Source: Tubiluchus corallicola (Eukaryota; Priapulida; Priapulimorpha; Priapulimorphida; Tubiluchidae). From it: a stretch of DNA of 64,000 nt. This document shows positions 892 to 64,000 of this stretch, in pieces. The translations under genes were made by a program, and so were the position numbers. Within the stretch, counting starts at the first letter, position 1. Each line of letters opens with the position of its first letter. The stretch is from positions 191,501 to 255,500 of the forward strand of contig JAQGDQ010000286.1 in assembly GCA_030141605.1 (NCBI GenBank), read 5' to 3'. Below the pieces are notes generated by a model. That model did no database searches. It was not told the DNA's origin and saw only the letters and a program-made list of their open reading frames with translations.

Positions 892-3800
892 CTAAAACAA
901 AAATCATTATTAAAATTCAGAACAATCTCTTGCTACACATTCATTTTAAGTGAAATTAAAACTTTGAAAAGGAATCAAAATAAAAGTAACTGAATCATAC
1001 ATAAGTCGTTAGCTCTAAGAAGAACAGAGTATGAAGTATTTGCCAAATAACCGAACTTTTGTACAAAAATTTAACTGCCACAAATGAACAACAATAAGAG
1101 TAAGTCAGGAATTAGTGGTGGAAATGAACAACTGAACATTAGCTAATTATTAAAAACAATATGTTAAATGGCCATCGTATGTATTCTATAAACTCTATAA
1201 ATTTAAATATAAATATAAGATTTGTTTACAGGAAATCACTTTTAAAACATGTCTTTGAACCGCAGCTGCCCAGAAGACAGAAAATCTTGGGTCCAAGTCC
1301 AGCTGAGAAGCAATTGTTTTTGTCTTTCTAATTTAGTATTGCTTTTGTACATTGACAGAATTTAATAACTACAAACTATGACTAAAACAAAGGCAGATAC
1401 ATACTATGCTCGGAAAGAAGTTTGTGTTACGGACATGCTTCAATAACATAGTCAGCACAAACGTTCCAAGGAACAACATGACACAGAGTAAGAACACATC
1501 GGGTACGTAGGGCACCACACCACATCCTGGACCCTGAAGAGTTCCATTTGCGTCCAAACATGTCTCGTTTGGTGGGAAAATCTAAAAAATTCAAGATAGC
1601 AAATACAGAAAACTACATACAATGCAAACTGGTGTAACTCGAATGCTTGCATAACTTTAACAGCACTCTTGGAACGGATTTTCCCTTTTGTTGTTCCTTT
1701 ACCAGTCACTGCGCAACTCAAACTGTGAGAGTGATTCAAATTATCGAGTAAGTCGAACTAAATTCCAGATGCATTTCTCCTTAAGAATGAGGCTGAAATT
1801 ACCTTGCCTATCTCAGACAGCCTTCCAAGCAAGAACTTCTACGTAAAAGTGTAAGCCACATTACGATTTTTATGGTTGCCCTTGTGTTAGACATGGCGTG
1901 ATATAAAGCATATACATCGGAAGTAATAGATCTCATAACGAAATGTAATATGTAATAATCATTTATTCATGTCACAGGCAATCTCTCTGCTGCAACAATC
2001 AATGTTGTAAAGATCTTATGTCGTTTACAAATAAATTGACTCCGATTATATCGCTAACAACCTGATACTTCTTGTGACATTTCGATTCTAATGGTGGAAA
2101 AGTGTTACATATCGAAATCTAACACAAAAAAGGACGAATAAACTGCGGCTTGCTCGATCACGTGGTTTTCCGACAGATCAAATCCACGCACTGTCAAATT
2201 TTGATTAAATTTAATGATTTCGTCCACCGCTGTGGTCAATGTATCGCCACTGTCTCAGCCATAGATAGATATAAACTGAGATCAAAATCGATGAAACTGG
2301 CTTCAGTCACAGTTACAATTTTAATTGTTAGTTTCAGCAAAAATGATAAGATTTTTTGCATTACCTCAGCAGAATGCTGCACACAACGAACGTAGTTAAT
2401 GTAGATCACAATATCATTATTGCCGAATTATGTTAGTCATGCTACTCAGACTACAAACGAGGTCCACCAGTTATTTTAATTTTGATTATTTATAAAATGT
2501 ATTGGTTGATATTTGCTTAAAGACTCATTTTGTCATTTTCACAGACTGTAGTGTATAGTCTGAAGATGAGCTCAATCTTGTTTTCTTAAGAACATTGTCT
2601 AACTCGTAATTCCGCATAACTCGCACAAATTTTCCAGTCTCGAGGTGTTTGAGTTATACGTAGTTTACGGTAGTAATTATTAATCAATTGCATAACTTGT
2701 CGAAACAGCATTGCACTTAAAGTTGTAAACTGTTCTTTTACATAGTTCCGAACACTACAAGGTGAAGTCTAATGGCAAGGCTTATTTAACTGATGATTGT
2801 GGCAAGACTGGAAACTGGCTCATTAGCAAGACCAATTCTCCAAGGTGAGCTGCTGAACCAGAGGTGTCTCAGCCCTATTTGGATATAAATACATTAACAT
2901 ACAACACCCTAAGCAGTCAGAATCAGTACGGCGAATTAAATAGTGCAGAGGGAGTATTGAACCGGCGGCCACCTGGCACTCACTGACTAATCTTGGCATT
3001 CCCTAACTCCGATTGCAAAGCATACAATGTGACCACTCGGTTAATCACCGCGCCTCACCAAAATTAACACCCAAATAATTTAGTTTTGCAAAATGCAAAT
3101 GAAGCAGGCGTAGTATCACTGTAGACGAAATTAGGCGCAACTAACAATTTTTATTTCGTGGCACAAAACAAAATGAGTCTAATACGTATGTGGTGGCAGG
3201 TTGAAAAACTTACAGAATAGTCGTCAGTAGAATTTATTGGACCTTCACACCAACAAGTCAAGTTCTGCGGTTCCTAAAAACAAAAATCATCATCATAATT
3301 TATGTGTATAGTTTGCAGCTGTAGTTATGCGATACCACATCTTTGTTTCATTGTACTTCCTAAATTGCGGGAATAATACCACAAAAAACTTCTGTTTTAG
3401 CAACTTTCTATTTAAGTAAACCATACAAGTTATAAGGCCACCACAGGTCATCAAAAGCAATTATTCGAAAGCACAAGAATGCTGAGGAAAAGAAACCAGA
3501 GTTGAATATCACAAGACAGAACAATAGAAAACAATAGAAGCTCTGGTAATTTGATATCATGACTAATCTTTTGTGGCAATTTTTTTAGTGTTTTAGCCAT
3601 ATTTTCCAAACATTGTAGCACTGAAATACAGCCTATAAACTTTTTCATTAAATTTCATCACTGTCTGCCATTTTCGTATTCGCAAACTATTTTTATAGAC
3701 ACGCACATTCATCAACTATTCTGCTACTACATCACTACACACGTCATGTAAAAATGAATTTGAAGCTCCCAGTTTGCAACACTGCACTATGCAGTTGTGA

Positions 3801-6800
3801 GCATTGTGCAGGGTAAGAAAAACGAAGAAAAAATACACTAAAACACTGCCTCTTTATGTGTAACATGTATATTTTGTTCTCGATTAACTGAATTATAGTT
3901 CAATTGCTGATTATTTGATTTATACATGCTTGTAATCTCAGTTAATTTGATTAATCTAACAGATACAAACATGAAGTACTTACATCTGGATTTGTGTCTA
4001 AAGGCACATCTTCGTATATCTCGATAATACTCTTAAACGCATCATATATGAATATGAGTGAAATCAAACACGCAAAACATTCTTCTGTGAATCTTGTAAT
4101 GTGGCGCACTAATGACGACGCATCAAAGGCAACTAGAACTAGTAAGATAATGGTCACCCATATACCGATCCATAGTCTGAATGGAAGATAGTCCAATCCC
4201 TCAGCTCTAAAAATAATAAGTTTAATTATCAAAGGTACTTCAAGACTTTTAATTATGCCAAAGAATTTTGTAGCTTTTCCATTTGCTGCCATCTTTATTG
4301 CTATTGTTACTTTGTATTTACTTTATACGTTTATGCATTATACTTTATATGTAAACAACTAATGAAGTCAGGCACATTGTACCAAAATATCTTTATTAGA
4401 TGCTAAATGCTATGGTTTATGAATTACACTTTATATGTAAACAACTAATGAAGTCAGGCACATTGTACCAAAAAATCTTTATTAGATGCTAAATGCTATG
4501 GTTACGATGTAATCAGTAGCTGTACATCTGTAATAACAGTTTATACACACGTACAACTATTGTAAATAGTTACAGGGTGACCAAAGCTTTTAGTTTTTAA
4601 TAAAGACGTTACTAAACAGTTGAACTTATACTATCACGGGTATACATTATAGACTAGTGGAAAACAGTATAACAGACATTAAACCGATGCAGGCGGTTTA
4701 AACGAGGTTAACATTAAGTAATATTTAGATATCGTTACACTAGCTAGTTATTATACAAATTTATATCTTGCTGTTAATTACAATTAACTTTCAAAGATAC
4801 TGTTACTAATTACTGACACACTGTAAAAAATCTGTCTGTAACAAAGTGTCAGCTGCAAACCATCTCAGGCAAAATCTCATCGCACACAGCAGCTTTTGTA
4901 TCGAAAGCAATTGAATCAATCAATGTCATGGGTAAAACGTCAGAAATCAATTATTACATGACATGTGACAAAACGGTCCGGTACTGGTCTGACATGGTTT
5001 TTTATGATGCAAACTGTTTTACCGAGCCCGCATACGGGAACAAGATGATTTTCTTAGGCCCGCATACGGCCTAAGACAAAAAATTAAGCAAATCTGTCTA
5101 ATAAAAAAGAATGTTGCTTAATAAAAATCTGTGTGAAACAAAGTTGGTAAAACAGCATTTGCCGAGCCTGCACATGACCAAGAATCTGTGTCAGAGAAGT
5201 TGTTGCAGACAGATATTGCCTCATGTGTGCCGGGTTTCAAACTTAAATATATACAAGTAAGCAGTAAAAATATCAAATTCAATTAACATAACATACGTTC
5301 CTATAAGTTTTGCACATGAACGGGGTGCATTAATGCAAGATCATAATTATTATAATTGCATGCTCATCAAATAATAATGTCACAGGCAAATATAGCAGCA
5401 TATTAGTCATTCTGCAAACTTAAAGGCATCATAACAATGTTTCATAAAACTTATTAGATTTTTATTAATAAAATGATTAGCAGTATTTTTTGCTGTTGGA
5501 TATATATGTTTTATAACTGCCATTAAAGCACTGCAAAGCATTGCAAAAGCATGTACAAAAATTTATCACAGTTAATGCACTCACACTTGCTATTTTACAC
5601 TATTTTGCACAGCATTATTTATACTTACTTGCTAAATTCATAGACTAAAGACTCCACAACCAACATAGGTCCTGTAGCACTCATTATTACAAGAGGTTGG
5701 CCAGCAAACAATGCAAACAGGAAACCACATATTGCTCCAGACAAAATACATTCCATTGTGGCCTAGAAAGGTGTTTAAAATAATTATTTATTATGCTGAA
5801 ATTAAGAGGTGTTTTAGACATATAGATTTTCCAAAGTGAGAATCTCACAAAATATTAACAAACAACTTCATACCATAAATATATGTTGGTACTACTAAAC
5901 TTCAAAGAAATTTGTCACATAACCTGGCGGGAATTCCAATTTATTATATTTCCAATACTGACTAATAAGAATTCGTTGTTTTATGGGTAAAAAGATTCAT
6001 TCTAACATGAACTAGATGTAAGAAAGTGTAGGGCTTCTACTAGAAATTACGAAGATATTCCGATTCATTATGAGTGAACATTTATTGAATATTATTCAAG
6101 AAGAACGTTTGGATGATAAAACTTTATAATCAGCTAAATAGATAACGGTTTTCTTAGCAAAAGATGTAATGGTTTTCTCAGTAAAAGATGTAATGGCCGA
6201 AAACTTGCAAAATCATCCAAAGAAACTTTATGAAGGAAGTTTATGAATAAGAAAACATGGTATCATAAAGATACTCAAAAAATCATTACCTGTTGCTGGT
6301 GCGTAGCATGCTCTAACAACCCTCCAAACGTAATTAGTGGAGCTAAGGTAACTACGTACATGAATATGCATGCTGCAATAATCTGTACAGCAAATGCATC
6401 TGTATAATCAGACAAGTAGACTTTGATCTTGCGTTTAACATCTTTGACCAAACCGCCAAATATGCTGCAAGGAAATCATAATTTCAGCATCATCTTTTTA
6501 AACTACTGAAGTAGATGATTGGATAATGTAGTAAATAATAAAGAATAAACTCAGGAAACTATCAAGCTTTCAGCAATGATATACAGGTAGTCGGCACCTT
6601 ATGACCCCAATACATTTCAGCGGATTAGCCGTAAGACAAATTGGTTGCAAGTCGGACCCACATATTAAAGCGATGCACCTCTACATGCAAGACATTGTTG
6701 TGTATGCGTACTAAGTATAGCAGCAGCTACGATGAATTTATCGAAAAAGATAGCGATTAGTTAATATGTTTAAAAAATATAAGGAAATATGAGTTATAAT

Positions 6801-9800
6801 TGGTTTTGTATAGTTAATTAATTAAACTGCAGTCGGGTCGCAAAGTCGAACAGCAGTAAGTCACATAGGTCGTAAGGTAAGTCGATGACTACCTGTAATC
6901 TCTTATTCTCAACAACAACTGTGGCAAATGAAAAGTAATTCTTACTGCTCGCTTAGTTATTATAAAGACATTGATCTCATCTGAACTGCAAAGTGAAAGG
7001 AAACTACTAATCAAATATCAAAAAAGGTTGTCAATGTGGAAGAAGTTTCTAGAAACCACAAACGGAACATACAAACCACTTCTAGCCAGACTCTCATCTT
7101 CCTCCTTTTCTGCTTTATCAGTGATGGCAGCTCTTTCAACAGGACCAGTTTTCTGTTTAAGGCTTTTAGCACGTTTGTGATCGGGAAGATGCTCGGGTGG
7201 CTCAATACGAATGTCGGGATCCCAGATGCTAGGTGGCAGCACAATAGCATTGCTAAGAAACTCATCAATTCCACATAAGAGCTCTTGACGAGTGAGGGCT
7301 TTATATACGACTTCGTGAAAGACCTGTAATAATGTGACACAATAAGCCTTTTCACAGTTCCTTTGATTGATAATGATCGTGAAAAGGTCAAAGGTTAAGT
7401 GTACCATAATATTTGTGTACATATGTCAGAACCTTGCAGCCCATGCTATTGTAATAGGAGCTGTTTTAGCAGCTAACTAGAATCATTTATTCTTGTTCCC
7501 AGGCGAGATCCTGCTAGTAAATCACTCTGTATTGAACATACTAATGCATAATTATGTAAAGTCCTTGTAAAACAAGTGAAGTTACTGAAATGATGTGGCA
7601 GATGGCTTTGTTTTACCCACATGTCACGTGGCAGTTGTAGTTAAGACGCATTGCTGGGGTTCACTTAACCTTTGACCTACAGCAACTGTCCATACGCACA
7701 GCGAAACTGCCTTTTTGACGTTGTCATTACCGTAACATAATTTTCTAAAAAATTAGTTCAAACTTTTTGGTAATAGCATAGTTTATTAAACTTTATTTAA
7801 AGCAGTCAGATGAATTATACGCACATTATGCCATAACATGTAATCGAGATGTTAGCGATTTCATTCCTGATGTAATAAATGAATTTAGGGTAATGAGTGC
7901 TATGAATTAAGGTGACAATGATTCAACTTAATAAAATGCAGTAACTAAATTCCTATAATTTAGTAATCTAACTGTGCAATCCCATATTTTAGCCACCAAC
8001 AAATGCAATGTATCTATCATTTATCATTGTTTCTCAAATACACGCAGAAAACGGTTTGGAAAATGCACCTTTTTCAACTTCCTTATTCTCATGATGTATT
8101 CTCAAATCTCATAATGATATTACCTTCAATGTCTTCAGCATGTAGCTTCTTCAATTACATTTACATTATACGTCAAAAACAAATAAACAAGCTCAATTAT
8201 TCACACAAATTCAGTAACAATACGACAAGCCATTACTTCGTCTGTCAGAAGGACTCCTAGGGCTCTGCCAATATGAGCATACTTCTGAGCACTGTCTCGC
8301 GGACCAAGCAGCATAAAACAGAATCTTGTGGGAATCATGACTTCAGTCATATTTGGAATGAAAACAGCTGGGTGAAGACGAACAAAGCAGCTGACAGTGT
8401 TCTGCAAGAAGTCGACCTCCCCCAGCAAGATGCTAGCCGACTCTGAACCATGTGGGATCTTATGCATCATGTATTCATGATGGGCCTACAATGAAAAATT
8501 TTAAAGTCATCCAAAACATGTGCTTGACATTTTGTTGTACTGTGTTTTAGTTTAACTGTGAAACATCAGATATGCAAAGACATGCAAAAAGTCTTGCTCC
8601 TTACAGCATTCGACTGCCAGGTTTTCTGTCGCAAGTTTTCTCTCTCACGGCAAACTCGTAATTTTGAACTGCTTTACGAGTTACTGTCGGCAAGTTATTG
8701 CAAACTCTCTGATAGTTGCTGCAAGCTGATGTACTGTTCTAATATGAATGTTTGGGCGAGTTTTTCTTCATACTTCTCCCAGCAAAGACTAGAGAAGTGA
8801 GAGTCAGTTCGCGCTTACATTTGGAGTTGCAATAAGTTTTGCTCTCTAGTCTGAACGCACTTGCTGGTTACTTGACGACTTACTGGCGAGAAAACTTGCT
8901 AGTCTGAACGTACCATTAATTACAATTATTGATTTCCATACTACCATGTGATGGCTATGTTAGCCCTAAAAATTTTGCAATTTATTCTTGGTTTAGCTTG
9001 CTGATCTTCTGAAAATGTTTCCTATGTCATGTGAAGATGGCCACAGATTGTGGTTGAAATGACTGTGTGAATCAAAGCCAAATTTGTGTGCAAATCTGAT
9101 GTTCCAGCTGGTCAAATTATCTGTGGTGATTTTTTTATTACAAAAAGTTGTAAATAGAAAAAATACAATAAACATGACTCAGTGAATAGTAACGATTTTT
9201 TAGTGAAATAGTATATTATGGAAGTATGTCAACATTGTAATTTCACCACTCTCTCATTATTGGAAAAGCATATTGTCTATCAGCTTTACAGTAAAGAAAG
9301 CTATTCCACTATAAAAAAAGCCATTTGTCATAATGGATACAACATAATGGATACCATAGTAAAGGAATGGCTGACAAATTATTGATAAATAATTACAAAA
9401 TTTGACCAAAGCGATTGTAAGACAATTTGTGATTGTCAGTGAGACTACTAGTATATGCAAAAGTGGAAATGATTTAATAAGTATTATAATAAGCAATAAA
9501 TATTTACTAATAGAATTATTTTTTAAGAATAATAGGCCTGTAGCAATATGACAGACAGCACTAGCATGGTTCAACTAAAGACCACAATAAAATAGCAAAC
9601 CAAAAATGCTTTTTCCATTTTCCACTTTTGCTAGTTATTGGATATACAGCTATTATAATATTAATAATCTGTGTTGAAAAAGAAATTTATTTGAAATATG
9701 GTTGTTTAGTAGATTTATTAGGCTTACCATCACCATAAAAACTAAATAAAAGTGGGAGGAAGCAACAAGTCAGCAACTAAAAATAGAAAAATAGTAAGTT

Positions 9801-36648: not shown

Positions 36649-38396
36649 TTAAATCAATATGTGGACTGTGAAGTCGAGTTGTTTAGTGGCGCCCCCTTAA
36701 TGGGACATTACCCTGTGATATCCAGCTTTAATACGTCGCAAGCAAATTTGGCAGAAAAGAAACATGTGTTCGACATTAAGGGTAGCAATTGGACAGAATG
36801 GTCACGTAACATAGACGAGCGCTTGATGGCAAACGACGTAGTCTTTAATAACTTGTTATTATCCAATGACGTCATTAGTATGTGGAACTGGTTTAGAGAA
36901 ACTATTGCCGAAAGTAATATGTTGGCTCTAAAACGTAAAGTTATCTGCGCTCACAGTAAACCGTTCTGGACTGCAGAGCTATCACGGTTATCAAGACTTG
37001 TTCGACTCAGCAGGAAGAAGTTCAAAAGACACTCAAGCTACGAAAATAAACTCATCTATATTACTGACAAAGAAAACTTTGATAGTGAACTTAGTAGTGC
37101 TATGAATAGATGGCTACAGAGCAAGACAGAAAAACTAAATGTAGAAAAAGGTGCCATCTTCTGGAAAACATATAAACAAATTTTTAAAGGTGTAAATAGC
37201 AATAATAATAGTAGTGTTGATATATTAATTAGTACTCGGATAGTGCTGATTTATTATATAAGACTTTTTTTAGTGGGGAACACATGAACGCGGAAGAATT
37301 TGATGAAAACTGGAAAAATCACATTGAACGCTCATTATCAGTTATGGACTGGGAACAAAACGAAAATTTTTGTCTAAACAACTGGTTTAATTTACAAGAA
37401 TTAGAAAATGCAGTAAGTGAAGTGCGAACTGAAGGCAAGTCGCTTGACTCCGATGGGTTTCACCCAAAAATGATAAAACATTTTGGGCCAGTCGCAAAAA
37501 ATATTGTATTACGTATTGCAAATATGTGCTTAGAAAATCAATTATGGCCTTGGACGTGCACGAAAGTAATTCCACTAAAAAAACCTAACAAAATCGATTA
37601 TTCAAATGCCAGTAATTATCGTCCAATAACCATTTCTTCGTATGTAGGTAAACTTGTTGAGCGTTTAATATCAAATAGACTTAAAAATCATTTCTTTCAG
37701 TTAAACTGCATTGATACAGAGCAAGAAGGCTTCATAAAAGGCAAAAATACAGTACGTTATTTAACCAGATTAGTTACTGATATGGAAGACGACATTTTGA
37801 ATAATGCATACGGTATAACAATTTGCTGTGATTACGAAAAAGCGTTCGACAGTGTTTGGGTTGAAGGTTTATTATTTAAACTTATTTGTGCAAATGTACG
37901 AGGGTCTATGTTACGTCTTATAGCAAATATATTACAAAATCGCAATATCTGCATAAAGATAAATGATTATATGTCCGATCAATATCGATGCAATTTAGGG
38001 CTCCCACAGGGGTCAGTTATAGCCCCAATACTGTTTATATTTTTCATTGCAGATATGTTTTATAATATGCATGACTCTGTTAAAAAGTACAAGTATGTTG
38101 ATGATGGATCTTTGCATGTGTCAAATACAGACCCGCAAACCTGTGTTACAATTGCACAAAGCTGTTGTGATGTGCTTCACAAATGGTGCCAGAAATGGCG
38201 TTTAAAGATAAATACGTTACCTGGTAAGACAGAAGCATTGCTAGTAGGGGTATGGGATGAAAATAACAAGCCAGACAATTTAAAAATTAGTAACAATGAA
38301 ATATTGTTTGTTGAAGACAGCAAAATATTAGGCCTAACTGTTGATCGGAATTTAACATTTGTTAAACACGCGGGTAATGTTCATAAAAAGGTATAA
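36646..38396 (+). mobile_element. Non-LTR retrotransposon fragment (endonuclease end plus reverse transcriptase), frameshifted
   Basis: Two overlapping open frames (36646-37287 and 37284-38396) belong to one ORF2-type polyprotein, broken by one frameshift near 37200-37240. The first holds the tail of the AP-endonuclease (GHYPVISSF, with Gly where the family has catalytic Asp in SDH) and the linker ending FWKTYKQIFKG. The second holds the reverse transcriptase: KSLDSDGFHPKMI, NYRPITISSYVGKLVERLI, CDYEKAFDSVW (first catalytic Asp), GLPQGSVIAP and YVDD. The type is Jockey/CR1-like. It is truncated at both ends: most of the endonuclease is missing, and the frame stops soon after ILGLTVDRNLTF, where relatives run on for a few hundred residues. 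It is not mobile by itself. Confidence 0.9.
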
Positions 38397-39236
38397 TTTC
38401 TTTAATAAAGATTTATTATTATAAAAAAATCAGTCTCTCTCTCTCTCACTCCTTGGCAATAAAATTTTGATTCGATCGAAATTTCTAAAAACCGAGTTAT
38501 CTAGGCTAAAGCCTGAGACGAGCAGAGATCACGAAAATTCAGCTTTGTAATCTACCACTTTGTGGACTAGTGGAGTCCGTACTCCTTAATGTGTAGTCCG
38601 TTCTCTTAATGATATATATATATTGTCGTCGTCGTTTACATTCATTTTAGCAACATCAGCAAAAGCAACAGTAACACCAGCAACTACAACAACAACAAGA
38701 CATCACCACCATTATAGTCATCGTCATCACAATCAACATCATCATCAGATACAGCAACACAAGTGTTGCAAACTTACTGAACCATTTTTGTAATTGTACA
38801 TGGCTTTGCAACAGCAGTGGCACTACATATTGCTAAGAAAAAAGAAATGCATTAAGGAAACCGCGCGGGCATATTTTAGTAAAATGGATCTATATAAGTT
38901 TAATTACGTACAGTGTCTACTTGCAAAAATAACTTAAACATGTGGCTAGTGCAGCTTGAAATCAAGAAGCCTCACAATTACTTATAATTTATGTTTACTT
39001 GACAGCACCTTGCAATTTTAAGTGATTGCATTCTGTAATTATAAGGTTTGTTTCTCACTTTAATTTCAATTTTCTCTGAAAAATCTAAAAATTCTAATAA
39101 CGTATGTTGGAATACAGTACATCACACAGCAGAACATGTATTGTTAAAGGGAACGGAGTAGCCACGTATGTCGTTGTATGCATGGGTAATGCAATTTTGT
39201 CTTGCAGCCTGGCGAAGTTTCTGTAGGTAAAACTAT

Positions 39237-39435
39237 GTGACGTTTACCTACCATCCGGAATGCGAATGCGTTAATGTAGGTGCGGAATAGATAAAATCGG
39301 TTTATATTGCTTTCACTGCACCCGTTTATCTGACTGCGGAGTGCGTTATTTTTTCTGCAGCTATTTCATATTTATACGCAGCTATTCCGTAAGTGGATAA
39401 CGCATAACGCATTCCGGATGCCAGGTAAACGACAC
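39237..39435. repeat. 199-bp miniature inverted-repeat element
   Basis: The left end GTGACGTTTACCTACCATCC continues GGAATGCG; the right end, reverse-complemented, is GTGTCGTTTACCTGGCATCC then GGAATGCG. The arms match at about 24 of 28 positions. GAC flanks GTTTACC on both sides and may be a 3-bp duplication. It has no coding capacity; the superfamily is uncertain. Confidence 0.72.
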
Positions 39436-39559
39436 TTAGCCCGTTTAGGCAAGCAAATACTATAGTCTACCTTTAAATAAAATTGTTTTCGTATCGCACA
39501 TTACACATTAAGAAAGGCATCGCACTCATAACAATTACCCAAAGCTAATATTAATTGAA

Positions 39560-39620
39560 AGAGGCGCAAAAAATTTGAACCTACAACCTTGAACTTTAAG
39601 CACACAACATAAGAACACAC
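39560..39620 (-). repeat. tRNA-derived fragment (same family as 33415-33480)
   Basis: The minus strand reads AAGGTTGTAGGTTCAAAT, a T-arm and B-box-like sequence, preceded by a segment aligning loosely with the 33415-33480 relic. It is too decayed to be a tRNA gene. Confidence 0.4.
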
Positions 39621-40517
39621 ATATATATTATTGATTTTGCAATGTCATTAACAAGTTATGCAATTCCACATTCACAACATCGGATTTAGGCACAAGTTAT
39701 AAATATAGGCTACAAGTTGAAGCCTCGTGGTTGTACTTTTTTAGTACAGTTTATAAATTACAAAAATCCGCAATTTTATCAAGTAATTTCTAATGTATCA
39801 TATATCATGTATTTCTAACAAGTTATATAGAACCTACATTATGTTTAGGCTTTAGGAATTACTCAAAATGCTGCGCGAGAATTCATTTTCTGTGACAAAA
39901 TTAGACAAAATTAGTCATTTTCCTGACAATTATTTGTTTACAGATCTTGGAATGTAACGCTCATGCAAAAATCTCTGGCAGCACGTGTATTCGCACACAC
40001 CTACAACCTTATAATTTTTGCGAAGGTGAACCCTCTGTGGGGTTAAACCCACAGTTCCATTAATTATGAAAGAGATAATAAGCAAAAAATCAGGGTGCTG
40101 GGATTTGCAGCTCTCTGAAAGTTGCCATTTCATGAGATCTGCAGTATGATGCAGTAACGATTTTTTGCATTTTACTTAACTAGTTACTTTATGACATCAG
40201 TAGCAGTTGTTCGAGAATGCTATATATTATAAGATTTTCCAGATGTGTTTACAGCAAGGTACACCGACCCCCAAGCATTTATGAAAACGTGTTTTGAAAC
40301 AACATGAACCATTTTATTTGTCAATGTTACTTTTTAACCGAGACTGAAAGGTCAACACGTATTTAATATAAGGTATCTCATCTTAGTAGGTGTGTGGGTG
40401 GCAGGATGGACTGTAGACTGCGAACTCCACGTCTTTCCCAGAACTTAGGGCATCATGATACGTAAATCCAACGTTGGTTCGGAATTACAGAATTATTGCG
40501 CGCAGGCTTATTTATTT

Positions 40518-40522
40518 ATTAC
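40518..40522. repeat. Left target-site duplication ATTAC
   Basis: Identical to 42977-42981 and directly abutting the left inverted repeat, so it marks the insertion site. Confidence 0.8.
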
Positions 40523-40555
40523 TGTAGGGAGCCGAGTAACCCACTAGCGCAAGTA
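40523..40555. repeat. Left terminal inverted repeat
   Basis: 33 bp, one mismatch with the right end (G versus C at 40549). Followed by subterminal inverted motifs to about 40620. Confidence 0.93.
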
Positions 40556-40766
40556 GACCACTTCCGGTAAAACCCATGCGCTAATAGTGTCCTACATGGG
40601 CAGCCCCAAGTAGGACACTAGCGATTTTTGTCGAGAATCGGTAATTTTGTTAAATTTTTAAAAATTCTGTGAAAGTTTCTTCATTTTATTAAAAATTGTG
40701 CTTGTTGGTTGAGTTGTCGTCAGTTTGGCGTCATGAAAGCTTGCTTGACCAGGTGTTTAACTCAGC

Positions 40767-42034
40767 ATGCTTACCTTATATTCAGAGACGCAGATGATTT
40801 TAGGAACGGCTACAATTATAGCAACTATTGGTCTTCGTCAGGGAAGCCCGACATCGTGTTTTCTTTTTACCTTGTACCTAAACTTGTTCGTGAGGCGAAT
40901 TAAACACGAGTGTGGAATAGATGACTTTCTTGGTTGGGTTCATTGTTTACTGCTTATGGATGATACTGTCCTGCTTGCCACGTCCAGAAATGAGGCCATA
41001 AAGAAACTTTCTTTGCTTTTAGGATTTTGTGAAGAATCAGGAAAGGTCATCAATGTAGAGAAGACAAAATTTATGGTGGTGAACGGTTCCCTAGCGGACA
41101 GAGTGGAATTTGTAGTTGACAATTTGTGTGTGTGCTGAATTGCAATGATTACACTTATTTGGGGGTTGTCTTTACTCAAGATGGATCGCCCGATGCTGCT
41201 GTTAGGGAACATTTTAAATCCAGGCAGCCACACGTGATGAAATTTGTCTCTTTTGTATCCAAGAACATCGACTTTCCATTTTGGATAAAACGGAAGGTGC
41301 TAGAATCTGCATTGCTCTCGTCCATACTTTATGGGTGCGAAGCCTGGATATGTGGCAGTGCCCGTATTGGCGAGGTTCCGTACCGCACTACTATTAAAGC
41401 TCTACTGGGGGTTCGTACATCTACCACAAACGACGTTTGCTTGCTAGAGCTTGGCATGCCCTCACTTGAAGCGAGGGTAAAAAACGTACAAAAAAAGTTC
41501 GTTTCGAAGTTGGTAAGCCAGCGTCACGCTATGACGGATGACCCGTTTATGCTGGTATGGAATTTATGTAAAGATACACGAACAAAGATACACGATGTAA
41601 AATATTTAGACAATGTTATGTCTACAGCGGATCACGTACAAGTAGATGTAGAGAGACGAAAGACTCATGTCCGAGCTTTTAATCGTACAAAATGCAAGAC
41701 TTATTTGGAAATAAATCCCAATTTGTCTGTGCATCCAATGTATGGGAAGACAGAGTTACCTGAGCACAAACGTATAATCATCACAAGAATAAGGGTCTCA
41801 TCACACAATCTAGCTATAGAAACAGGTCGTTGGGCAAATGTACCTCGTGAGCGCAGGCTGTGTCTTTGTGGAGAAATTCAGACAGAAGAGCATTTTTTGT
41901 GCGAGTGCCATGAAAATGCACTTTATAGATCACTGTACGCGTTAAATTATAGTAATATTGCAAATTTATTTGATGGAGAATTAATGTCAATTGGAAATTT
42001 CATTTACGACTGTATGCATAGATTTGTTAATTAA
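40767..42034 (+). pseudogene. LINE reverse transcriptase C-terminal half, frameshifted, nested in the TIR element
   Basis: The first frame (to 41138) carries IGLRQGSPTSCFLF and LLLMDDTVLLATSR, the fingers-palm motifs of a non-LTR reverse transcriptase; the catalytic box is MDD instead of the usual YxDD. The second frame (41126-42034) carries DYTYLGVVFTQDGS, VLESALLSSILYGCEAW and a terminal CCHC knuckle (CLCG...EHFLCECH). The frame slips in the GT run at about 41125-41134, and upstream of 40767 stops appear, so the copy is 5'-truncated and dead. About 300 bp after the stop comes AATAAAAAAAATATCTATCTATC (A-rich, then a short tandem tail, 42316-42338), a typical LINE 3' end. Confidence 0.85.
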
Positions 42035-42943
42035 ATAGTATAGCTTTGTTAGCGGACACATAACCGCATCACGGAGATTATCACATAGGTAAAATATTTG
42101 TATAATACATGTGTACAAATGTTTAGTAAATAGGTTTTTTTTCGGTTCATGGAGTGTACAACTAAATTTGCATATCTGTGTGTATACCTGTGCAGCTATG
42201 TTGAGTCAAATTGTTAGTATGATCTGGAAATCATTACCCGAGCTCTGCCCGCTAATAAAACCATCGGGTATGCGTTGATTTTGTAATTTCGTGTTTGGAA
42301 ATTTGATTTTCAGAAATAAAAAAAATATCTATCTATCTACGCAGGTATTGTTTTGCGATGAGTTTTGTAACTCGTTTACTGAAGTCTGGTAACAAAGCAG
42401 CTCATTTAGCACTCTAGCATTGTTCAGCAGTATGGTTATAATAGAGGTGAAATGAAACAATACTACAGGAACAATACATTTAAGAAAAGCAAGGATAGTT
42501 TTAATATTATCAGTAGTATTGTAACATGTAGGGCACTGTCCTACATGGCTCGCTAGCCCACGCAGGACACATAGATCGCTAGAACGTTTACTTATAAGAA
42601 AACAATTATTTGCCCAAGAGGTAGTGAAACGGATCACCTGTTTGTGAAGTTAGACAAAATCAAAAAATGATATACCTTAAAGAAATGTTGAATTCGCAAA
42701 AAAGTGGTTTTTTCACTTCAACAACATTAATGTCGAAACCAAATTTAATATTGTCCGTTCTACCAGCTCAGAATAAAATTCTTTTATTTTATTAGATGTA
42801 TAATAAATTATTCAACGTGTAGTAACGTTTTTAATTATTATTATTACATAAACAAGCACAACGGACGGTGTCAGTACACTTAACGACTCAATTCGCGACC
42901 CGTCTCTAGTGTCCTACTTGGGCAGCCCATGTCTGCCGCGTCT

Positions 42944-42976
42944 TACTTGGGCTAGTGGGTTACTCGGCTCCCTACA
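42944..42976. repeat. Right terminal inverted repeat
   Basis: Reverse complement of the left end, preceded by the subterminal motif GTCCTACTTGGGCAGCCC at 42911. Confidence 0.93.
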
Positions 42977-42981
42977 ATTAC

Positions 42982-45614
42982 AACTGACACAAAACTTCAG
43001 AACATAGTATGTTTGTACATGTATAAGCTATTAATGGCACTGTTATGGTAGCAGCAAAGTATACTGTAGTAGAGTACCAAAACTGTAGTACACCATGGTG
43101 CCACCTACAGGAATGCAGCAAAAAATTCATTTTACCTGTATGAAAAGTAAGCCTTGCAGTTGAGTCCACAGACGTTGTCCAATCGTTATTATCCGTACCA
43201 TCATAAACGGAGGTCTTACACAGACTGCGACAAATCAACGAACGCATGCCGTTTCAACCTTTTTACTTCTAGTACTGTACACGTATTTACCACAGAAACC
43301 TTGATAACACAACATCTCCAAGCATGTGATTTTAAAAACACCTCCTGTACGTCAATAAACTAATTCTCTTAAAAAAATGAGTAAATGTTGAAGCAATTGC
43401 AGTGAGTTTCTTATTGCCGAGTTGTGATATTTCCACGAGCATAATGTAACACTCGTATTTCCGAACCACATCACCGTGCTTTCAAAATATGTATATGTAC
43501 TATTATTATTGACGTGCTGACAATAAGGCGCATATTTCTAAACTAGGTAGCAACCACACACTGCAGCTTCGTCATCAATACAACCACGCTGTTAACTATA
43601 CACACTGCGACTCGTGGTAGAACAATTTTGTGATCACCCCCGTGAAAATACGGGCGAGTATCTTATAAATAGCGCACTCCCCAATCCTGTGCGACGTGTA
43701 TTACCAGAAACTTACTGTACTACAGCCAGACATACAGCCTACGCAAAACTCAACAGTGAATTGACGAACACGAGTACGCTTCTAATCGTTATTATACACG
43801 TCATAGCTTTTGTCTTAGCAGCTTCTTCTTGCATTTCCAATCAGCTAAGTGCTGAAGTAGCTCAGCTGAAGATGTACAAGCAGTGGAGTCTGAGGCCCCT
43901 TGGGAGCATCGTATGCAGTTTGCTTAAAAAAAGCGCACACCATTAATTTTTCTGCAAAACGGGTGGCGACTGAGTAAACTTACATCTGCTTCGGTCGCTC
44001 GCAGCAATACAAAGAAATAACTATGACCTCTTCATCTCGTTTCCCGAGCAGGTCCTGTAATGCTCAAATTCTATAAACAGAGCGCTGCATGAGCGGCTGT
44101 GTATACTCATCGATAAAAATTTCACTGACCCACGAAAAAAAATCACACATCCAAATGGCTTTATGCTGGTGGCTCATTGATATAATAGTACCACTTGAGT
44201 ACATGAATAATCAAAAATTAAGTGCTAAGCGTTAAACTTTTTATGAACGCTAATGCTGTGTCTCTATATGCAGTTTCGTTTAGCAATCTCCGTCTAACAC
44301 AGCACAAGCAGTTCATGGAAACAAGGATATATTAAGAAACCATATTGTAGACAACCATGAAAACTAATGTGATAACTAACCCTATTACTGTAAATGTGGC
44401 TGATTTTCATAACATGGCTATTGTGGTTTTCTTGTAAAAAAACTCAACAAAATCAGTAAAAATCTAAACTTCTTTAAATTTAATGCAATATTTTTTATCA
44501 TCGCTAAGCAGTTGCGCTCTCCTGTCTCAATTTATTATGTTTTGCACTGCACAAGAAATTTGCATAAACGAATTTTACAGCTGATCATCTACTGATAGCA
44601 AACGTTGCATTTTAAATGATCAGAGGTTGTTTTTCTATTACTTACAAATAAAAACACCACACTTCAAGACGGAAACAATCACGTATTAAAACATAAAATA
44701 AAAACACCACACTTCAAGAAGGATACAATCACGTATTAAAACATAAAATAAAAACACAGAAGCAGAAAAGAAAATCACAGACCACAATCACAGAAACTGG
44801 AAGATTGCGACACAAACTTTTTAAAAATTAGTACTAGCATCCTTTTGTTATTTTACCTTTCTTCCTCTTGTTTACCGCCTGATGACAAACGCCATTGCCA
44901 TTTAAAACGCAGAGCTTTTTCAATGTTTTGTCAGTGGAATTTTTTTTAATAATTATGACTGTTCTTGTCATTAAGAATTAAATTTGTATCTAATTAACTC
45001 ATTTCATTTAATAACAGTTTTTTCACAAAACTGAATCACAAATTTTCAATACAGAAAAGCATCATTTAGCAGTTGATTAATGGGGCAAGGTAATCAATAC
45101 TTACACTTTTTCAACAAGTAAAATTAACCGCTGGAGCTTGAGATCTATGGGAAAGACTAGAAGTTTTATGACAGGAAGTTGGGCTACAAACCTGAAGATG
45201 ATTCAATTTTGTCAAAATTTATAAAATACTGTATATTTATATGTTTTATATATACAGTACATATAAAGATACGTAAACTTGCTAAATTTGCATAAGTCTA
45301 GAACTAGCTGTAAAAACCTGGGAGATTTTTTCTGTGGAATGGGAAAACTATTAAAAATTGCCTCTGAATTTCAAGTAAAAAAGCATCTCGAAGTTTGATT
45401 ATGATCTCTCAACTATCGTACCAAGTTGATGACTGTTTTTCGTATATTTTAGTAAATTTGTTCAAAGGCGAACCAGGAAGATGCAGAAAAGGAATGTCAG
45501 CCAAACTGTGACAGTCCAGGCAAACCAAATGGCTGACCAAGAAAGCCAGAGGTGGCTAATTACTGCATTTTACTGACCATATACTGAACTAATCAATTAT
45601 GGTACAAATTGGTG
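42982..45614. other. Intergenic region downstream of CFAP221
   Basis: It contains a 50-bp tandem duplication (44651-44750). A plus-strand open frame of 110 codons (43614-43946) has one hydrophobic segment but no recognisable family and is probably chance. No canonical AATAAA for CFAP221 was obvious just past its stop. Confidence 0.5.
44651..44750. repeat. 50-bp tandem duplication
   Basis: Two copies (44651-44700, 44701-44750) beginning AAAACACCACACTTCAAG, differing at two positions (GACGGAA versus GAAGGAT). A third copy starts and breaks off after 44757. Confidence 0.93.
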
Positions 45615-48317
45615 TTATTTTGCAAAACGATGTACATCCAGCATCGTAGCAGACCTTTCTTTTGCAATTACTTTACTTAAGTGATGATGCTTTGATGACT
45701 TTTCATCAGATTCTGGAAGACGAAATAAAGTTTTAATTGCATCAAAACGTAGATTACTGCCTGCTCTTTCAGCTTCTGCAATATCAGAAACAAGGTCAAC
45801 ATTTTCAAAAGAGTTAATTTTCAAATATTCCGGAGTTGACGTCGGAAGCATATTTTCATTGTAACGCACGACATCCATATTAAAAGTAGTACCTGTGTGA
45901 ATATTTGACACCTGCGGCAAATGTTCCATCGCTTCCTGCCATTTCTCGAAGGTTTTCAAACCTTCACGATATTCTTCTAACTGTAAATCAATTGGTTTAT
46001 TTGGAAAGTAGTAATCAGTCACTGAATAAGGGAGCTTTCTTGCAGTGGGTTGTGTCCCAGGAGCAGGATCAAATATATGCAGAGGAGAATACTTTGGCGC
46101 ATTTATCAACTCCTGTGGAACTGTAAACTCACTGTGCACTGTACGAGGTTCTGTTTCTTCCACACTATGTTTGCTGCTAGGTTTTGATATGGTTACACTT
46201 GACTCAACTGATTCGGCTAAATCAGTTGCTAATTCACCTTCAAGATGTTTTTTGCTCAAGCACTTATTAGCAAAGTAAAGGTACATTACTTCCACCCGTT
46301 CAATCCCAGGAAAATCAGCAAATTCTGGGAACAAACATTCGTGATTTTGGGGAAAGTTGAAATTAATATCGTGAAGAGAGATATCTGGTATGTTACTTGT
46401 GGCGACATCTGGCATAGGTAGCTTATTGTAAATCCCAAGGTCACATTTGCCCACTCTTGGAGGTGCTGGGAACTGCGATAAGTCATACTGGCCAGGCATG
46501 TGGCCTGTCAAAAAATCTACTTGGGGAAGACTCTTTGTTTTGCTAATTTTCTCAAAACTAAGGGCTTTTTTACTTTCGACACCCGTAATGTCAGAGACAT
46601 CTTCAGACGACATATCGCCCTCTATATTGACAACAGAACACTGTTCAAATTGGATTTTTGCTAAATAATCTTTGATCTTTCTTAATCTTTTCTCCATCCT
46701 ACATCGATATATCACTTTCCATGTAGCAGCGATAAATCTTTCTAATGTTCTTTGTCGCTGGGCCCACAGATTAATCTTTCCTCTGTCAAAAGATGGCTGA
46801 CGTATAACTGTATCATCAGCACTTCTACAGGTTCTTCCTGCTAATGAAACTGTAGCAACATCAGAGCCTAACACTGATTGCTCTGACATGAAGACCATTG
46901 CCTCTTCTGTCTGTGATAACTCAGCCTTAGTTTCAGAAGTAAGAGGCAAAAATCCATGTTTTACATCAATTTTTTCACTGTCCTCCTTATCGATTTTCTT
47001 GCACCTGTCCAAGAAAATTTTTTCTTTGTCCATTCTACTCAGTTTGCTGCTTGCATATTTTTTATTTACCTTTACTAAGACATCTTCACATCTTGAACTA
47101 CTCTTGCTTTTGTGCTTCTTTAAAAATAAAATATTCTTCTGTTGACCTGCTTGATGTTTCCGCTCAAAAACTTTGTCTTGAAAAACTTGTTTTTCTGGTA
47201 ATCTTAGGTCACTAGTTTCATGTTCAATTATACTTGCAATATCTCTTTTTAGTGAGTCCATGCTTTCCTCTAAAACAGACTGCTGAAGTTCCATGAGTGC
47301 TAAGCCAGCGCTTTCAACAACATCTGACTCACTTCTGTCACAAGGCTGCAAAAGACTTTCATTTGATGTTGTCAGTAAAAGTCTACTACTTTTGCTAGCA
47401 GCAGTTCCATCCACGGCTTCTGTTGATGTTTCTGTGGCATCGTTCACACTTTTTAGCGCAGCAGAACTATCACCTAAAACTTTCTCTGTTTCGGATATGA
47501 ATGGCAGTTTTTCCGTTGAACCAGTTATAACACAGGTCAATGGAGTACTGTCAAAATGCAGTAAATGCAAATGAATTTCTGCACAAGCTGCTTCCAGATT
47601 TACTGGTTTAAATGTGATGAAAAACCTTTTCTCAGACATTCCAGGAATTACACCATCACGAGGATGATAGGTAAATGCCGGATGATCTTGTACAATGGTC
47701 ACCCAGAAACTACATTCTGCAGCCATATCATTCTTTAGAGGAAGAGCAAGAGTTTTGCTTTCTCCACATTGTAAAGCAGGAAACGTTAAAGCTTCGGGAA
47801 AACTTGGCAGCAACTGTGCTTCCGTTGCATGGATTGGAATTAGTAAATTCTTATTATTCTGGCAATGTATCCTAATACAGTCATAGTAATAGCGTGTTTC
47901 TTGAGGAGTAAACACAATGTTAACAGTCATTTTCAAACCTGGCAAAATGGTTCCTTTTTTGGTATAAGAAATCGAGAAAAACTCTGTCTGCGGAGGAATT
48001 ATGTGTATCTTTTGGCTTCTCACAGAGGTATTTATGATTTGCAAAGTTAACTTTTGAGAACTTCCTGACACAAACTTGGAAAAATGTAACACGGCCGGTT
48101 TAACAAATATGTCTTCATTCTTTTCTTGTGTGAATACTTTGGTTTCCAGTAAGTGGTTAGGGACACCTGCACATGATGCTGGTTCAACTTCTCCACACAA
48201 GAAAGTGGACAAGCTTCCTTGTAGGAGTTTGGGTGACAATGACAGATTTTCTACCGCAATTTGACCTTCATTTGGTATATTGCATACGTCAAGCGAGAAG
48301 CACTCAGAACTAGCCAT
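45615..48317 (-). CDS. CFAP221: CFAP221 (PCDP1), cilia central-apparatus protein, intronless
   Basis: A single uninterrupted 900-codon frame. Residues about 70-265 form two MSP/ASH-like beta-sandwich domains, with the family phrases KIHIIPPQTEFFSISYTKKG, ILPGLKMTVNIVFTPQE, RYYYDCIRIHC and NLLIPIHA. A low-complexity Ser/Lys-rich middle follows. Near residues 510-550, LERFIAATWKVIYRCRMEKR is an amphipathic basic helix suited to calmodulin. The C-terminal third holds KYSPLHIFDPAPGTQ and YYFPNKPIDLQLEEYREGLK. CFAP221 is known as a calmodulin-binding part of the C1d projection of the motile-cilium central pair. Length fits the family (human about 840). Animal orthologues are usually split into many exons, so this copy looks retrotransposed yet intact. 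An acceptor-like TTTTTACAG lies 40 nt before the ATG, suggesting a 5' untranslated intron. Confidence 0.83.
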   Translation of the reverse strand: MASSECFSLDVCNIPNEGQIAVENLSLSPKLLQGSLSTFLCGEVEPASCAGVPNHLLETKVFTQEKNEDIFVKPAVLHFSKFVSGSSQKLTLQIINTSVRSQKIHIIPPQTEFFSISYTKKGTILPGLKMTVNIVFTPQETRYYYDCIRIHCQNNKNLLIPIHATEAQLLPSFPEALTFPALQCGESKTLALPLKNDMAAECSFWVTIVQDHPAFTYHPRDGVIPGMSEKRFFITFKPVNLEAACAEIHLHLLHFDSTPLTCVITGSTEKLPFISETEKVLGDSSAALKSVNDATETSTEAVDGTAASKSSRLLLTTSNESLLQPCDRSESDVVESAGLALMELQQSVLEESMDSLKRDIASIIEHETSDLRLPEKQVFQDKVFERKHQAGQQKNILFLKKHKSKSSSRCEDVLVKVNKKYASSKLSRMDKEKIFLDRCKKIDKEDSEKIDVKHGFLPLTSETKAELSQTEEAMVFMSEQSVLGSDVATVSLAGRTCRSADDTVIRQPSFDRGKINLWAQRQRTLERFIAATWKVIYRCRMEKRLRKIKDYLAKIQFEQCSVVNIEGDMSSEDVSDITGVESKKALSFEKISKTKSLPQVDFLTGHMPGQYDLSQFPAPPRVGKCDLGIYNKLPMPDVATSNIPDISLHDINFNFPQNHECLFPEFADFPGIERVEVMYLYFANKCLSKKHLEGELATDLAESVESSVTISKPSSKHSVEETEPRTVHSEFTVPQELINAPKYSPLHIFDPAPGTQPTARKLPYSVTDYYFPNKPIDLQLEEYREGLKTFEKWQEAMEHLPQVSNIHTGTTFNMDVVRYNENMLPTSTPEYLKINSFENVDLVSDIAEAERAGSNLRFDAIKTLFRLPESDEKSSKHHHLSKVIAKERSATMLDVHRFAK

Positions 48318-48355
48318 TGGGTAGAAGTTTCACTTACAAAGCTCAAGTACAGTAA

Positions 48356-54212: not shown

Positions 54213-63911
<9,699 letters not shown>

Positions 63912-64000
63912 GTAGGAATCTTAAAGTTGGACTACATGCTGACGCTAAGCCACATTCATGCGGTAACAAAATGCCAGTTTAAGTCTACAGATCTGACATT

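Follow-up and report, generated by a model that had tools for sequence, protein, structure and literature searches.

The locus

The window, a stretch of 64,000 nucleotides from Tubiluchus corallicola (G000:C379:191501-255500), contains an element with terminal inverted repeats (TIRs) at 40523-42976, inside which a LINE fragment is located. A second and different LINE-type reverse transcriptase (RT) frame of 387 aa (RVT_1, E 4e-28) precedes the element by about 2 kb, at 37233-38393 (+). Downstream, at 45618-48329 (-), an open frame of 904 aa contains Ig-like domains of the CFAP65/HYDIN/Cep192 type and probably represents a single long exon of a cilia gene. Toward the two ends of the window, an exon-sized match to Band_3_cyto (7021-7425, -; E 4.9e-9) and an amidase-like exon piece (63591-63998, +; Pfam Amidase E 1.8e-5, below the cut-off) were observed. 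The features of the element and its target-site duplication (TSD) are as follows.

40518-40522, no strand: left TSD, ATTAC, read from the sequence; exact 5-bp TSDs are found in 18/33 two-ended copies
40523-40555, + strand: left TIR, starting with TGTAG (fits TGTNR), 32/33 complementary to 42944-42976
40523-40770, + strand: left arm with subterminal GTCCTACWTGGGC motifs in both orientations; abuts the right arm in empty copies
40761-41135, + strand: open frame with part of a LINE reverse transcriptase, from Pfam RVT_1 and PDB matches
40771-42337, + strand: nested 5'-truncated LINE fragment with a (TATC)n-like tail, from junction comparison; site unfilled in 17/39 stretches
41120-42031, + strand: downstream LINE coding remnant in another frame, 304 aa, from the open-frame listing
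42338-42976, + strand: right arm, from comparison with empty and longer copies
42944-42976, - strand: right TIR, ending with CCCTACA, paired with the left TIR at 32/33
42977-42981, no strand: right TSD, ATTAC, read from the sequence

The 33-bp inverted repeats given in the preliminary description were measured again, and the pairing of 40523-40555 with 42944-42976 at 32/33 was reproduced (96.97%, E 3.3e-9 within the window). The same pair appears in the repeat listing of the window as the 40-nt inverted repeat I1 (90%). The 5' end of the element is TGTAGGGAGCCGAGTAACCCACTAGC and the 3' end is the inverse of TGTAGGGAGCCGAGTAACCCACTAGC, so that the termini read TGTAGGG...CCCTACA. The uninterrupted TIR of the window copy is 33 bp, and additional inverted similarity is located internally to it, at 40594-40624 and 42903-42932. 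The ATTAC duplication described earlier is seen on either side of the element, and likewise in L009, a stretch from a second contig discussed below. The GTCCTACWTGGGC motifs of the left arm are located at element positions 67 and 82.

The frame at 40761-41135, whose first bases belong to the left arm of the DNA element, matches Pfam RVT_1 with an E value of 8.7e-14 over profile positions 116-193 of 205, which is a partial domain. Among PDB chains, this frame is best matched by LINE-1 ORF2, R2 and a further RNA-directed DNA polymerase, with E values of 0.002-0.01 and weaker. The frame at 41120-42031 has no Pfam match at E 0.1. The reading frame of the LINE is broken, with a frame switch near 41120-41138. 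The LINE-type reverse transcriptase reported inside the element is therefore real, though partial and frame-broken. The inner part as a whole has an RVT_1-type RT and a simple-repeat tail and is without LTRs, as is typical of a LINE.

Copies in the genome

The genome searched comprises 343.5 Mb in 2344 contigs. A search with the left 198 bp of the element as the family query, in which 40 of 589 candidates were scored, gave 44 match rows, and 39 stretches were then fetched for comparison. Duplications were counted in the 33 stretches with two usable ends. L027, L042, L043 and L045 are excluded from the 33, as one or both ends were not found by the pattern; L034 and L035 are also excluded, since their flanks are as in L033 and they are taken as the same locus. 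L009 is counted within the 33 and within the 18 with exact 5-bp TSDs. Open frames of at least 90 aa were listed for 32 elements (the 33 minus L009).

The terminal pattern TGTWGGGAGCCGAGTNRNCCACT, allowing up to two mismatches, was found 400 times in the forward and 412 times in the reverse orientation genome-wide (812 in total), and the reversed TGTWGGGAGCCGAGTNRNCCACT pattern used as a control gave no match in either orientation. Exact TSDs of 5 bp are present in 18/33 two-ended copies, of 4 bp in 5/33 and of 3 bp in 1/33; swapped flanks give an expectation of 0.125 each for 4 bp and 5 bp. Exact duplications of 6-8 bp were not found among the 33 copies. No exact TSD is present in 9/33, among which are decayed ends and single mismatches (L015, L038 and others), and 10/33 have neither an exact 4-bp nor an exact 5-bp duplication. 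The ends of the other copies are mostly TGTAG or TGTTG, and a few are decayed, e.g. in L015 and L044.

TG...CA ends and 5-bp TSDs occur in LTR elements too, and instead of a DNA transposon the element might be a degenerate LTR retrotransposon or a foldback structure. However, long direct repeats are expected of an LTR retrotransposon, and the terminal repeats are inverted in the window copy and in the other two-ended copies as well. For this reason the LTR retrotransposon was rejected. The RT is, moreover, of the LINE type, and we regard such a structure as extremely improbable.

GTCCTACWTGGGC-type motifs, counted with up to two mismatches, occur three or more times in each of the 33 elements, compared with 0.02 times per mononucleotide-shuffled element in the control. 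They mostly occupy recurrent subterminal places in both orientations, and perhaps they are putative binding sites. Long copies have the ends and internal stretches in common with short ones. Thus, the short copies, including the window copy, look like internal-deletion derivatives. The right arm of the window copy has an internal deletion near element position 1949/1954 (approximately window 42471-42476) relative to longer copies.

Several arrangements were observed besides simple insertions. L014 shows apparent nesting of family members or ends at 2001-4080, with two forward and two reverse ends, and the inner end pair has a 4-bp CTAT duplication. In L045, a block corresponding to element 24-97 is tandemly repeated at 1801-2225 with a spacing of about 59 bp (starts 1801, 1883, 1942 and 2001). 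L033, L034 and L035 represent one insertion with identical immediate flanks on three contigs (C2264, C2138 and C1787). Duplicated regions thus seem to be present in the assembly, and they inflate the copy counts.

Empty and filled sites

Where the site is empty, element 1-248 (the left arm) continues via CATGC|AG|TACGC into the right arm (from element 1816). In the window copy, the LINE with its TATC tail separates CATGC from TACGC. According to these junctions, the LINE occupies 40771-42337, and its left border, earlier placed near 40720, is corrected to 40770/40771 by the alignment with the empty copies. The border between the LINE and the right arm is ambiguous by TA at 42338-42339. The two target bases AG have been lost, and the LINE is not flanked by a target duplication.

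The intact CATGC|AG|TACGC site was found in 17/39 fetched stretches by a strict pattern, a number that counts L033, L034 and L035, which are probably one locus across three contigs. L018 and L022 were missed by the strict pattern and are also empty on alignment. The other stretches besides L009 gave no strict-pattern match, and in the alignments the surroundings of the LINE site are absent from many of them. Copies without the RT, named in the preliminary description as the sign of nesting, are thus present in the host genome among the stretches found with the left 198 bp. The LINE junctions were found in only one of the 39 stretches, L009. This stretch is identical to window 37523-46523 at 9001/9001 bases, and it is therefore taken as the window locus on a second contig (C1545).

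The preliminary description had offered a second reading, a composite in which the DNA element acquired a LINE fragment and then moved with the LINE as cargo. The ATTAC duplication, the (near-)perfect TIRs and the position of the LINE entirely inside the element are in agreement with it. A recent daughter of such a composite should top the identity ranking, yet the next-best copy after L009, L010, shows 95% identity over the left 198 bp and its site is empty. Further copies are at most 94% identical over the same 198 bp, and no copy other than the C1545 locus exceeds 95% (40 of 589 candidates scored). The LINE is 5'-truncated and frame-broken, and the sole other filled stretch among the 39 is the same locus as the window. 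The composite therefore finds no support here and is very unlikely, although old or decayed daughters might rank below the scored candidates. The LINE is very probably a nested insertion, and no sign of cargo was seen among the 39 stretches.

Integrase fragments in relatives with the same ends

L017 (2375 bp) is flanked by the TSD ACCAT, and it shows 92% identity to the window copy over element 1-220 and 95% over 1954-2433. It contains a 218-aa open frame, of which the final 153 residues match Integrase_H2C2 and then rve. Both matches are below the curated cut-offs: Integrase_H2C2 has an E value of 2.4e-4 and a score of 21.6 (cut-off 25.5), and rve, matched at profile positions 7-68 of 102, has an E value of 2.8e-4 and a score of 21.5 (cut-off 32.6). 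The order from H2C2 to rve is the domain order expected of a retroviral-type integrase. The piece presumably resembles vertebrate KRBA2-like proteins. It gave no match against PHROGs and NCBIfam at E 0.1, and the best match in the PDB, an HIV-2 integrase chain, is not significant (E 0.51). The fold computed from the single sequence is uninformative (mean pLDDT 42.1, pTM 0.30). A search for integrase relatives in viral contigs with six peptide patterns gave no match.

L047 (4384 bp, TSD ACACC) is the longest copy. It contains a 117-aa frame with HSQSQGVVERGN, which by our own reading of the sequence would surround the last catalytic Glu, in the C-terminal part or at the core end of the integrase. 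This fragment has no Pfam match at E 0.1. The stretch preceding the integrase piece is common to both copies (L017 217-439 versus L047 1527-1719, 83%), and thus the two pieces are in corresponding places. L047 also carries a nested piece at approximately 2836-4111 (oriented), with weak BED-finger and DUF4371 matches below the cut-off and CTTAAAC at both borders. It resembles a hAT-type element inserted into this transposon family, a label that also draws on the form of hAT ends.

Using the 153-aa piece of L017, which covers the N-terminal half of the integrase, as the query against the genome, a strong match was found with L017 only. Five weak matches of 25-35% identity were detected in open frames of 204-1641 aa, and the long frames among them are probably Gypsy-type. 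A complete autonomous copy was seen neither among the loci read nor with this N-terminal-half query. Concerning the integrase-bearing relative with the same ends that the preliminary description proposed to look for, a fragment scoring below the cut-offs is thus present in L017, and no complete gene was seen.

These fragments could instead be nested pieces of LTR retrotransposons within another DNA-transposon superfamily with 4- or 5-bp TSDs. Integrase-like frames were recognised by eye in just 2/32 elements with listed frames, the Pfam scores are under the curated cut-offs, and the longest copy, L047, already holds a nested hAT-like piece. However, the stretch common to L017 and L047 places the two pieces correspondingly, the TGTAG ends and 4-5-bp TSDs are traits of integrase-type elements, and the remaining matches of the L017 piece in the genome, as found with the N-terminal-half query, are only 25-35% identical. 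We consider another superfamily improbable, though less so than the composite. The reading put forward in the preliminary description, a non-autonomous Ginger-like element in which a LINE is nested, is supported by the empty sites (17/39), the 5-bp TSDs (18/33) and the integrase fragment in the same-ended L017.

Proposed history

The locus is very probably a non-autonomous, internally deleted Ginger2/TDD-like cut-and-paste transposon, later nested by an unrelated 5'-truncated LINE. A retroviral-type integrase supplied by longer relatives would recognise the TGTAGGG ends and perhaps also the repeated subterminal motifs. The integrase would then excise the element and join it to the target with a 5-bp staggered cut, and repair of the gaps would leave ATTAC...ATTAC. 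Later, an unrelated LINE would have put a 5'-truncated cDNA with a (TATC)n-like tail into a single copy, with the loss of AG and without a TSD. We infer this order, the transposon and then the LINE, from the single filled locus. The RT would play no part in the mobility of the element, which is presumed to be mobilised in trans by the integrase.

The apparent paradox of a DNA transposon with a reverse transcriptase is thus removed, as the evidence points to two insertions that took place separately at this locus. The finding is real yet ordinary. It is of modest use in describing a family with 812 terminal-repeat matches in an assembly with duplicated regions, with mixed 4- and 5-bp TSDs and with integrase remnants. 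The mixed TSDs add evidence on the variation of target-cut length among integrase-type transposons. It is conceivable, though we regard it as rather doubtful, that the family represents an undescribed, probably animal, Ginger-type lineage with mostly 5-bp and also 4-bp cuts and with subterminal motif arrays in both orientations. If so, this lineage would form a bridge between the TDD elements of Dictyostelium, with 5 bp, and the Ginger2 transposons of metazoans, with 4 bp.

Comparison with known systems

The inner fragment is similar to LINEs in its RVT_1 domain, which has LINE-1 ORF2 and R2 chains among its top matches in the PDB, in its 5' truncation and in its simple-repeat tail. It differs from them in that there is no target duplication and two target bases are gone. 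A retroelement piece within a TIR element is also known from MER6, described in PMC6887750 as a MITE of Mariner origin with a SINE V domain that spread together with MER6. In the present family, on the other hand, no sign of the inner LINE spreading with the element was seen among the 39 stretches.

Ginger1 was rejected for the outer element: CCGG or CCGT targets are expected, and none of the 23 exact 4- or 5-bp TSDs is or contains CCGG, CCGT or ACGG. IS481EU elements have TSDs of about 4, 15 or 25 bp, according to PMC10045372. They were also rejected, as within the compared lengths of 4-8 bp the 5-bp duplications predominate (18, versus 5 with 4 bp) and none of 6-8 bp was found.

The remaining system is Ginger2/TDD. 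Its TIRs are about 50-180 bp, with 45-297 bp in the table of PMC2836005, and the uninterrupted TIR of 33 bp here is below the range in the table. The non-TDD Ginger2 transposons of metazoan species have 4-bp TSDs according to the same paper (PMC2836005), whereas one family here mixes mostly 5-bp with some 4-bp TSDs. Among the 18 targets, the first TSD base is A in 9 and the last is T in 10, and the RTATAY preference of Ginger2/TDD is not clear. Ginger2/TDD elements encode an H2C2 and DDE transposase; here the L017 fragment scores below the cut-offs, and no complete gene was seen with the N-terminal-half query. Ginger2/TDD integrases are also characterised by having no GPY/F or YPYY motif, and no complete integrase was present among the fetched copies. 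As the TIR length, the target preference and this motif trait leave the assignment short of proof, the outer element is called Ginger2/TDD-like.

The ends, the duplications and the integrase pieces agree with Ginger2/TDD. TGTNR ends and TSDs of 4 or 5 bp, with 5 bp in TDD-4 and TDD-5, are given for Ginger2/TDD in PMC2836005, and 4 or 5 bp is also given for Ginger2 in PMC10045372. Here, TGTAG is present at both ends of the window copy, and exact TSDs are 5 bp in 18/33 and 4 bp in 5/33 copies. In one relative, an H2C2 zinc finger precedes the first part of an rve core, both scoring below the cut-offs. Short non-autonomous derivatives of Ginger2 are also known, such as Ginger2-1N1_NV of 252 bp (PMC2836005).
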